From NCBI GenBank assembly GCA_903952205.1, contig CAJBEZ010000022.1, positions 1 through 64,000 of the forward strand: a stretch of 64,000 nt of DNA, written 5' to 3'. Both the position numbers and the translations under genes were made by a program. Each line of letters opens with the position of its first letter. Position 1 is the first letter of the stretch. Shown here piece by piece: positions 38,044-41,071 of this stretch. The notes under the pieces are model-generated. The model was not told where the DNA came from. It saw nothing but the letters and a program-made list of their open reading frames with translations, and made no database searches. Origin of the DNA: an uncultured Desulfomonile sp. (GTDB lineage: Bacteria; Desulfobacterota; Desulfomonilia; Desulfomonilales; Desulfomonilaceae).

Positions 38044-39318
38044 ATGGGGTTTGAGGATAGAAACAAGGGCCTATCAAGCACGGATGAGGCAATGTCGGGA
38101 CCCGACAGAAGACGGTACCAGGAAGAATTTCTAAAACAGATCATCGCCACGGCATATAAAGCGGGAACTCCGTTGAAGAAAACGATGGACGCTTTGGGGA
38201 TTGGCGTAGGAGACATCAGATCGCTGGAGGATCTAAGCAAGCTCCCCATTACCAAGAAAAAGGATCTGGCTGACGCACAGAAAGCCAGCATTCCTTTTGG
38301 CGGTTTCCTGACTGTTCCGATTAGCGATTTGGCGCGAATCCATCAGTCTCCTGGCCCAATCTACGATCCAGTCGGTAAAACGAAAGATTACTGGCGATGG
38401 AAATTGGCCCTTTACTCTGTTGGTTTTAGACCCGGAGATATAGTGGTTAACACTTTTGCTTATCACATGACTCCCGCGGGACACATGTTTGAAGAAGGCA
38501 TTGTAGAGTTGGGAGGGGTTATTGTTCCCACAGGTGTCGGAAACACCGATGCTCAGGTCGATATTATAAGAACTCTGGGAGCGACAGGATTTATAGGAAC
38601 ACCCAGTTTCCTGATGGCCATCCTGAAGAAATCAGGAGACATGGGATTCAAGCCGCGCAAGGACATCAAACTGGAAGTTGCTTTCCTTGCGGCCGAGATG
38701 CTTCCTGAATCGATGAGGAAGCGTTTCCTCGATGAATTCGGCATCGTGGCCCGGCAGGCCTATGGGACGGCCGATGTTGGCTGCCTGGCCTACGAATGTC
38801 CGGAGACCAACGGCATGCATATACATCATGACGTCATAGTGGAGATAGTCGATCCAGAGTCAGGCCTAACCCTCGGGGAAGGGGAGGTGGGAGAGGTAGT
38901 GGTAACCTGTAATAATAGGATTTACCCCCTGGTAAGATTCGGCACGGGCGACATTTCAAGTATTTCGAGCGCAGAATGCGTCTGCGGGAGGAAGGCCCCA
39001 AAACTGACTCGAATCATGGGGAGGGTGGATCAGGTCACTAAAATCAAAGGAATGTTTGTTCATCCATCCCAGGTTCAAAAGGTGGTCGAAGCTCATCCCG
39101 AAATAGCAAAGGCCAGGCTTATTGTAGAGCGACCGGATGATCAGGATGTAATGAAACTTGAGATTGAATTGAAAGGATCGATTGCGGAAGGATTCATTTC
39201 GAAAGTCGAAGCTACGATCAGGGATTCGTTACGGTTGAAAGGCTCTGTCTGTGTGCTTGACCCCGGAACGCTTGAAAGTGAACACAAGATAATAGAAGAC
39301 CGTCGCAAATGGGACTAG
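38044..39318 (+). CDS. PaaK-like phenylacetate/aryl-CoA ligase family protein
   Basis: A 424-residue adenylate-forming enzyme of the PaaK branch. The family start is recognisable (EEFLKQIIATAYKAGTPLKK, with a LEDLSKLPITKKKDL block near residue 60). VNTFAYHMTPAGHMFEEG near 138, RQAYGTADVGCLAYECP near 237, LVRFGTGDISS near 299 and GRVDQVTKIKGMFVHPSQV near 329 follow. The typical Ser/Thr/Gly-rich P-loop is reduced to a SPGPIYDPVGK-like stretch near residue 100, as in some PaaK homologues. Aryl or other carboxylates may be the substrate. TACGGAGGCG precedes the ATG. It is divergent from the acyl-CoA ligase. Confidence 0.85.
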   Translation: MGFEDRNKGLSSTDEAMSGPDRRRYQEEFLKQIIATAYKAGTPLKKTMDALGIGVGDIRSLEDLSKLPITKKKDLADAQKASIPFGGFLTVPISDLARIHQSPGPIYDPVGKTKDYWRWKLALYSVGFRPGDIVVNTFAYHMTPAGHMFEEGIVELGGVIVPTGVGNTDAQVDIIRTLGATGFIGTPSFLMAILKKSGDMGFKPRKDIKLEVAFLAAEMLPESMRKRFLDEFGIVARQAYGTADVGCLAYECPETNGMHIHHDVIVEIVDPESGLTLGEGEVGEVVVTCNNRIYPLVRFGTGDISSISSAECVCGRKAPKLTRIMGRVDQVTKIKGMFVHPSQVQKVVEAHPEIAKARLIVERPDDQDVMKLEIELKGSIAEGFISKVEATIRDSLRLKGSVCVLDPGTLESEHKIIEDRRKWD

Positions 39319-39399: not shown

Positions 39400-39603
39400 T
39401 CAAGAAAATCCCTTTGAACCACTGGATCCGCAAGAAGAACTCAAACTTTTTTCAATGCCGGTTCTTGCAAATACCGAAAAACTTTTTTTGGTTCGTTTGC
39501 TGTCACATGCTGGGCAGGATACATTTTCATCGCATTCTGATATGAAGCATATCCTCTCAAATTCTTTCCCACATTCTTCGCACACAAATTCGAATATAGG
39601 CAT
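39400..39603 (-). CDS. FmdB-family zinc ribbon protein (second copy)
   Basis: A 67-residue protein MPIFEFVCEECGKEFERI with CPAC further on: two CXXC pairs, at Cys8/11 and about 31/34, as in the FmdB family. The tail is Ser/Gly-rich with an extra Cys. The ATG at 39603 lies 10 bases after the selenoprotein stop, with GGGTGAG as site, so both are probably one transcript. Coupling of FmdB with a HesB-like selenoprotein is a useful functional hint. Confidence 0.88.
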   Translation of the reverse strand: MPIFEFVCEECGKEFERICFISECDENVSCPACDSKRTKKSFSVFARTGIEKSLSSSCGSSGSKGFS

Positions 39604-39613
39604 GTTGCTCACC

Positions 39614-39910
39614 CTAGCTGCAACTACAGCCCGAACCGCATCCCGTCCCCGCCAGTTCCGCCGTAGGTCCGAAAACGCTTGATCGTATATTTAATCCGCC
39701 AGATTCTTTTATGATCTTCATCGCGAAAGGATCCACGATAACTGGCACTTCGTTGATAGTGTGGTGTTCGTCAGCTTCTTTAGGCTCATCCAGAGCCAGT
39801 CCCATGTTGGGACCGCCTCACCCATAGCCGCCAAAGAATATCCTGACGTACTGATTTTCAGCAATTTTTTCCTGAAGAAATTTTTTAGATTCATCGTCCA
39901 TCGAAAACAT
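39614..39910 (-). CDS. HesB/IscA-like selenoprotein (in-frame TGA = Sec31)
   Basis: Reading from the ATG at 39910 (after AAGGGGTG), the frame encodes 30 residues, meets TGA at 39820-39818, and continues for 67 residues to TAG. Residues before the TGA are NQYVRIFFGGYG and after it GGPNMGLALDEPKEADEHHT, so the protein reads GYG-U-GGP. IscA/HesB-like proteins have GCGGPS/LGLALDEP here, with Cys at the TGA position. HesB-like selenoproteins with this exact feature are known in anaerobic deltaproteobacteria. The C-terminus GTGCGSGCSCS has the expected extra cysteines. Role: probably Fe-S or selenium/sulfur handling. Standard gene calling would start at the internal ATG (39805) and lose the first 35 residues. 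selA/selB/selC are not in the window. A frameshift-free single TGA in an otherwise normal frame makes a pseudogene unlikely. Confidence 0.88.
39783..39820 (-). promoter_or_regulatory. Bacterial SECIS-like tandem hairpins after the Sec codon
   Basis: Immediately 3' of the TGA in the mRNA, GUCCC-AACAU-GGGAC (39813-39799) forms a 5-bp hairpin, then GGCUC-UGGAU-GAGCC (39797-39783) forms a second. Bacterial SECIS elements lie in this window and are read by SelB; one of these, with its loop G residues, is the likely element. Confidence 0.5.
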
Positions 39911-39940: not shown

Positions 39941-39969
39941 AGTATATTCATATATAAGTATATAGTCAA
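39941..39969 (-). promoter_or_regulatory. Promoter with internal palindrome for the selenoprotein gene
   Basis: On the minus strand TTGACT (39969-39964), 17 bases, TATACT (39946-39941): near-consensus, about 30 bases before the ATG. The spacer and -10 together form an imperfect palindrome TATACTTATATATGAATATA (39960-39941 region), well placed for a repressor. Confidence 0.65.
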
Positions 39970-40016: not shown

Positions 40017-40592
40017 TCAATCGGGTCTGTCGTTTATGATCTTAATTTTGGGAGAATTCGCAGCTTCTTGTTGTCCGGATACTTCCGGGTCGTTTGGCTT
40101 GGCGCCAGAGACAACCTTTTTTCGCCCAATTTTTTCCGATGTATGGCGTCGCGAAGCGTCCAGCGTCAATTCTTTAATTAAAGGAACCGATTCCTTTGAA
40201 GTTTGGCAAAGCCTTATTGTCTTTTCAATTCCGCCATATATCTCTGACTGACCTATCATAACTTCATTGCCCACTATTACAAGCGGAACAGCAAAGCTCT
40301 TGTCTTTGTGAGCGGCTCCAACCTTGGAGAAAAGATCGTAGCCATCGGGCTGATTGATATCAAACACATCTGTTCTTATGGGAAATCTGGTTTTCAAGTC
40401 TTCAAGCAATTCCTTGACATTTTCACAAAATGGGCAGTCAGAAGACGTGAAGAAAGTAACCACAACCCAATGTTCCGAATTAGAATCCTTGGGCGGGCTA
40501 TTTTGGGCTAGCGCCTCAAAAGCCGGCAAACAACTCATGATCGCAAAGCTGATTAGGGTAAGTATGACTCTGGACAGGCCGCTTGACTTCAT
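40017..40592 (-). CDS. Secreted thioredoxin/glutaredoxin-like protein
   Basis: A 191-residue protein with an N-terminal signal (VILTLISFAIMSCLPAFEALA, cleavage near residue 29) and a thioredoxin-fold domain. The active site is FFTSSDCPFCENVKELL with CPFC near residue 54, and the cis-Pro region is AVPLVIVGNEVMIGQSEIYG near 115. The last 50 residues are charged and have no recognised domain. It likely acts in the periplasm as a thiol-disulfide oxidoreductase. Its ATG overlaps the stop of the upstream small protein (ATGA), so they are coupled. The selenoprotein downstream has its own promoter. Confidence 0.82.
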   Translation of the reverse strand: MKSSGLSRVILTLISFAIMSCLPAFEALAQNSPPKDSNSEHWVVVTFFTSSDCPFCENVKELLEDLKTRFPIRTDVFDINQPDGYDLFSKVGAAHKDKSFAVPLVIVGNEVMIGQSEIYGGIEKTIRLCQTSKESVPLIKELTLDASRRHTSEKIGRKKVVSGAKPNDPEVSGQQEAANSPKIKIINDRPD

Positions 40593-40939
40593 CGCTTCAC
40601 TGGAATGAGTCTTTTGGGGATTGGATAGAACTGATTGACATTTTTATGTCTCCTAAAACCGCACGCCTCTCTTTGGATCAGCAACCCTCTCAGAGCCTCT
40701 TCGCTCTTCTCGACTAAAGCGTTGTATTCGGCTATGCGTTGGTTCAAGTCCTGAATGAACTCCGCGGACGCGTCGGATTCACCATCCTTGTACTGATTCA
40801 ACAATTCTTTCGCTCTGGATCCAGCTTCCATTGCTTTTGCCAGAATGCCGTCCAGGATGAGCCCTGAACTTCCCAGACCTTCGGCCATCTCTTTGACAAA
40901 TTCTATTTCGCATTCAGAGATGTCGCGGCATACACCCAT
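40589..40939 (-). CDS. Small helical protein, unknown
   Basis: A 116-residue protein, not recognised. It is mainly helical (LSSSGLILDGILAKAMEAGS-like segment, then coiled-coil-like EFIQDLNQRIAEYNALVEKS and EEALRGLL). Two early Cys (MGVCRDISECEIEF) and one near residue 93 are present. The ATG at 40939 lies 8 bases after GGGAGG; an in-frame upstream start at 40960 is less likely. It overlaps the thioredoxin-like gene by 4 bases, suggesting a redox link. Confidence 0.6.
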   Translation of the reverse strand: MGVCRDISECEIEFVKEMAEGLGSSGLILDGILAKAMEAGSRAKELLNQYKDGESDASAEFIQDLNQRIAEYNALVEKSEEALRGLLIQREACGFRRHKNVNQFYPIPKRLIPVKR

Positions 40940-41071
40940 TACCGGAGCCTCCCTTGTCAATTCGCGATATATAACATAGAGTGTTTACAAAGACAATGCC
41001 GTGAATGATTGAATACAGAGATGTTTTTAATATAAAAAATCAACTGTATGTTTAATTAACCTCTAAATTAC

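Follow-up and report, generated by a model that had tools for sequence, protein, structure and literature searches.

A divergent HesB/IscA-like gene with a predicted selenocysteine codon, an FmdB gene next to it and a conserved promoter in Desulfomonilales

Introduction

In the stretch of 64,000 nucleotides of an uncultured Desulfomonile sp. that was analysed here (the window), a short minus-strand gene carries an in-frame TGA at codon 31, which is very probably decoded as selenocysteine (Sec) in a small protein of the IscA/HesB type, the product itself being predicted from the DNA. The gene is a divergent new member, with a genetic setting of its own, of a kind that is already known. The HesB-like selenoprotein family, with its U-x-G-P motif, was described before (PMC1794560, PMC13188914), and such proteins were listed in surveys since 2005, including those of Syntrophobacter, Syntrophus and Desulfovibrio. 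The original prediction, made from the letters of the sequence, had called HesB-like selenoproteins established in anaerobes; the roughly 20 years of survey records agree with it, and the novelty of the finding is lowered for that reason. No established function for these proteins was found in the selenoprotein literature that was searched. What is particular here is the Sec-only, long-branched clade formed by the proteins of the order, the presence of an FmdB gene in 17/17 loci and of a promoter in 17/17 genomes. Taken as a whole, the locus is best explained by a Sec-containing A-type carrier that is transcribed together with FmdB, and we consider this explanation probable. The features discussed are collected in Table 1.

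Table 1. Positions of the features at and around the HesB-like gene, numbered within the window.
Feature	Position	Strand	Basis
HesB/IscA-like selenoprotein gene (predicted), 98 aa, Sec at codon 31	39614..39910	-	family match, homologues, structure
TGA, very probably a Sec codon, at the site of the conserved ErpA/IscA Cys	39818..39820	-	frame, alignment
First hairpin GGUCCCA-ACA-UGGGACU, between UGA and SECIS	39798..39814	-	conserved in part
Predicted SECIS (hairpin GGCUC-UGGAU-GAGCC), 25 nt from UGA to the apical loop	39783..39797	-	covariation, published model
Predicted promoter TTGACT-N17-TATACT of the HesB-like gene	39941..39969	-	conserved upstream block
FmdB-family zinc ribbon gene, 67 aa	39400..39603	-	TIGR02605, synteny
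Upstream neighbour: glutaredoxin/thioredoxin fold, CPFC motif, N-terminal hydrophobic stretch	40017..40592	-	conserved
Upstream neighbour: 123-aa protein, weak DUF6665-like	40589..40960	-	conserved
Convergent neighbour: AMP-binding/phenylacetate-CoA-ligase-like enzyme	38044..39318	+	conserved position

Probable recoding of the in-frame TGA

The frame had been predicted with its ATG at 39910, TGA at 39820–39818 and stop at 39614, and these coordinates proved exact: it runs on the minus strand from the ATG (39910–39908) through the TGA to a TAG (39616–39614), and the product has 98 residues when the TGA is counted as a residue. A standard ORF listing of the locus returns as its sole ORF a frame of 63 amino acids (39614..39805) that begins at Met36, which is the mis-call of which the original prediction had warned. 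Since the gene scores under both curated selenoprotein models, automatic annotation would probably also give this truncated protein.

If the TGA were a true stop, the locus would hold either a 63-residue protein made from Met36 or a decaying gene, and we regard this as extremely improbable. Met36 is indeed conserved, and it is where ORF callers start the 63-aa frame, but the ribosome site GAAGGGG precedes ATG1, and inspection of the sequence found none like it upstream of Met36. Moreover, codons 1–30 are under purifying selection, which is equal on both sides of the TGA (pN/pS 0.25 upstream vs. 0.28 downstream), the TGA and the SECIS hairpin are kept across the order and in distant families, and the forms in which Cys replaces Sec come without the hairpin. 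Conservation upstream of the TGA already refutes the reading as a stop in silico.

The presence of selA, selB, selC and selD, of which selB and selC were decisive for the original prediction, was examined in the host genome assembly (4.78 Mb, 120 contigs, 99.99% complete), and all four were found: selA with 595 bits, selB with 399 bits, selD with 364 bits and the tRNA-Sec gene selC with 70 bits and the anticodon UCA. The host selD (L042) has an in-frame TGA of its own and is thus a selenoprotein form of SelD. The HesB-like gene is present in 17 of the 18 genomes of the order, the one without it being an 82%-complete assembly, and the TGA stands at codon 31 in 17/17. The alignment of homologues shows both the TGA and the sequence upstream of it to be kept, and homologues with a stop at this place and no upstream similarity were not seen among them. 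The selenoprotein reading is in this way supported by the machinery, by the upstream conservation and by the SECIS hairpin alike.

In the wider phylum a relative of the gene was detected in 199 of 395 genomes, with TGA in most among the matches listed and with TGT or TGC at this position in others (Cys forms). In some families (G313, G057, G404, G294, G230, G373) Sec and Cys HesB-like genes adjoin each other within ~0.5 kb, and only the Sec copy of these pairs has the SECIS hairpin. In one relative (L013, around 1624) codon 42 is an in-frame TAG and the SECIS stem is disrupted by two changes; this copy has therefore either decayed or been misassembled.

The SECIS hairpin

Two hairpins of 5 bp each had been predicted to follow the TGA. 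There are two, and the second has a stem of 5 bp (39797–39793 with 39787–39783), while the stem of the first was corrected to 7 bp (39814–39808 with 39804–39798); consistent conservation was found for the second hairpin only. The published model of the bacterial SECIS requires a loop of 3–9 nt, a stem of 4–16 bp, a distance of 16–37 nt from the UGA, a G within the first two loop positions and an MFE of at most -7.5 (PMC13188914). The second hairpin, with a 5-nt loop (UGGAU) whose second base is G, a stem of 5 bp, a distance of 25 nt and -7.6 kcal/mol, lies within these constraints and tracks Sec versus Cys, so that the SECIS modelling proposed in the original prediction gave a positive answer. 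The first hairpin was ruled out as a SECIS, its loop lying 10 nt after the UGA (outside 16–37 nt) and its stem being 74% paired. Rfam at a loose threshold returned no relevant match at the HesB-like locus.

Since ~4.5% of the synonymous recodings of this single gene form a SECIS stem by chance, the evidence for the hairpin comes from comparison and not from the single sequence. Among 49 distinct Sec-form sequences of the phylum the stem is paired in 99.2% of cells, as against 51.1% in the same columns of 18 Cys forms, and compensatory changes from C-G to U-A and from U-A to C-G occur among the Sec forms. Three codons that fall in the stem, GCT, CTG and GAG, show no synonymous variation in 16/16 sequences of the order; at most other invariant residues of the protein the synonymous sites vary. 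The motif UGGCUC-UGGAY-GAGCC, with its loop 25 nt from the UGA, is found phylum-wide and tells Sec forms from Cys forms. Rare stem variants, namely GGCCC/GGGCC, GACTC/GAGTT and a shifted stem in L139, were observed (L130, L141, L139) and may help in testing SelB specificity.

Judging by the anatomy of the hairpin, its covariation and the machinery present, decoding of UGA31 by the SelB/SECIS route is close to certain: SelB with Sec-tRNA(UCA) would decode the codon, guided by the hairpin that carries its loop 25 nt further downstream.

Relationship to A-type proteins

The best family of the HesB-like protein is TIGR01911 (HesB-like selenoprotein), with 49.0 bits (E 6.8e-13) against a curated cut-off of 66.35; by this cut-off the protein is related to the modelled group without belonging to it. 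It scores 41 bits with NF038090 (IscA_HesB_Se; cut-off 85) and lies under the cut-offs of both PF01521 and TIGR00049. Of the other Sec forms in the phylum six were scanned; they gave 60–122 bits with NF038090, three of them passing its cut-off, and all six were under that of TIGR01911.

Searching with a profile built from the clade recovers two A-type proteins of solved structure, HI1723 (ErpA-type) and AQ_1857, and in the profile alignment U31 stands at their conserved Cys, with the C-terminal Cys aligned too. The original claim that the flanks are IscA/HesB-like and that Cys stands at this place in such proteins is borne out by this alignment of U31 with the conserved Cys of ErpA/IscA. The AlphaFold model of the protein has a pLDDT of 84, with low confidence in the last nine residues, including the tail Cys; among its significant hits in the PDB are IscA, HI1723 and AQ_1857, followed by SufA, and the predicted fold is of the IscA/SufA type. 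U31, C95 and C97 align with the three ligand Cys of A-type proteins; the tail is poorly modelled, and the Cys pattern varies among relatives, so the three-ligand site stays putative. In a tree of 89 sequences the 17 proteins of the order form one Sec-only clade (100/100) with a branch length of 1.23 changes per column, the deeper placement of the clade being uncertain because the tree is built on ~107 columns.

The TIGR01911 family and the proteins described here have in common Sec at the first conserved HesB Cys (U-x-G-P, here U-G-G-P), anaerobic hosts (the kin of Syntrophobacter, Syntrophus and Desulfovibrio) and a SECIS just downstream. Unlike the members of that family, the genes of the order form a long-branched Sec-only clade, with FmdB fixed downstream and a conserved promoter of their own. 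NF038090 is alike in fold family and in Sec position, but the score obtained here is under its cut-off. The A-type carriers IscA, SufA and ErpA are alike in predicted fold and in the alignment of C-terminal Cys; they have Cys as first ligand, whereas here Sec takes its place.

Genetic context and promoter

The FmdB gene was predicted to lie 10 bases downstream of the HesB-like gene, and its ATG is indeed at 39603, ten bases after the HesB-like stop. With TIGR02605 it scores 51.1 bits (cut-off 31.3), and it has no in-frame TGA before its own stop. The arrangement is kept across the order, FmdB being directly downstream in 17/17 loci; at the 66 loci compared that are not the main copy of the order, it was never the immediate downstream neighbour, and these loci gave two other FmdB hits. 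FmdB-family selenoproteins were reported separately, from marine metagenomes, and a literature search on FmdB, zinc ribbon and selenium jointly found no paper. Counted in a span of 1.5 kb, the genes for the glutaredoxin-like and the 123-aa proteins precede the HesB-like gene in 16/17 loci of the order, and the gene for the AMP-binding enzyme is convergent with it in 14/17.

The gene was also said to have its own promoter and palindrome, and this holds throughout the order: TTGACT-17-TATACT, with the inverted repeat ATATA-CTTA-TATAT and then GAATA in the spacer, is conserved in 17/17 genomes. The conserved block, TTGACnATATn4-TATATGAATA, lies 59–88 bases from the start codon, and the remaining upstream sequence drifts. 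It was not seen at 65 wider HesB loci. In a regulon search of 18 genomes the promoter motif matched only this operon at 0–1 mismatches; at 2–3 mismatches further places appeared, chiefly a set of sites that precede a molybdopterin oxidoreductase and have the TTGAC.ATAT part without the ATATATGAATA part. A second, genus-conserved promoter, TTGACTATATATTGATATCTATATATA, precedes a gene for a molybdopterin oxidoreductase whose signal resembles the twin-arginine type (L097, L076, L094, L095, L102). The layout of the locus is best explained if the HesB-like gene and FmdB are cotranscribed from the conserved promoter; the partnership with FmdB, as well as the regulation of the gene, is what we infer from this context.

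Possible role in Fe-S metabolism

Profile searches of the host genome (draft, 120 contigs) detected no other A-type protein (IscA/ErpA) and no SufB/D (PF01458), and four NifU_N-type proteins were found in it. Fe-S assembly in the host seems to rest on NifU/IscU-type systems. In four relatives extra A-type-like open frames without in-frame stops were observed (L024, match 1501-1686; G008:C115; G005:C102; G013:C12; G006:C212), and in that of L024 Trp replaces the ligand Cys (GGWRGP).

In the proposed mechanism, Sec31 would occupy the place of the first cluster-ligand Cys of IscA/ErpA, Cys95 and Cys97 of the Cys-rich tail would be the other two putative ligands, and the protein would bind and hand on iron or an Fe-S cluster via this selenolate-plus-thiolate site. 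Such binding and transfer appears to be the most likely action, with odds moderately in its favour. Given that the searches found neither a second A-type protein nor SufB/D, while NifU/IscU-type scaffolds are present, the best guess is that the HesB-like protein serves as the cell's A-type carrier partner of the NifU/IscU-type system.

A genuine selenoprotein at this locus might instead be a thiol/selenol redox enzyme or an oxidant sensor, perhaps acting with the glutaredoxin-like neighbour, and no Fe-S carrier. Most bacterial selenoproteins without an assigned role are considered redox proteins (PMC13188914), and the glutaredoxin-fold gene lies upstream in nearly all loci of the order, yet the motif is U-x-G-P and not CxxU/UxxC, the nearest Cys is in the far C-terminal tail and the predicted fold is IscA-like. 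Furthermore, the hydrophobic N-terminus of the glutaredoxin-like protein points to export, so it may sit in another compartment than the selenoprotein. The redox role is on balance unlikely. Still less probable is a selenolate-based binder of a soft metal or metalloid, induced via a repressor that would act on the inverted repeat in the promoter spacer. The preservation of ATATA-N4-TATAT and GAATA in all 17 genomes amid drift, the restriction of the spacer motif, at ≤1 mismatch, to this gene and the FmdB zinc ribbon downstream are consistent with such induction; against it, the cluster yielded no regulator gene, the AT richness of the spacer may merely aid the promoter, and among the conserved neighbours no resistance genes were seen. 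Transfer of iron or an Fe-S cluster by a Sec-containing A-type carrier is kept as the preferred reading.

A bolder version of the carrier reading, which we hold to be rather doubtful, is that the only chalcogen-ligand A-type carrier of the order is an obligate selenoprotein, so that Fe-S maturation would be partly selenium-dependent, with FmdB as a dedicated partner. The clade is tractable, with a single detected A-type protein, a genome without SufB/D and a fixed partner gene and promoter. That the HesB-like protein is the sole A-type protein detected, in a genome in which no SufB/D was found, suggests a selenium-dependent Fe-S carrier.
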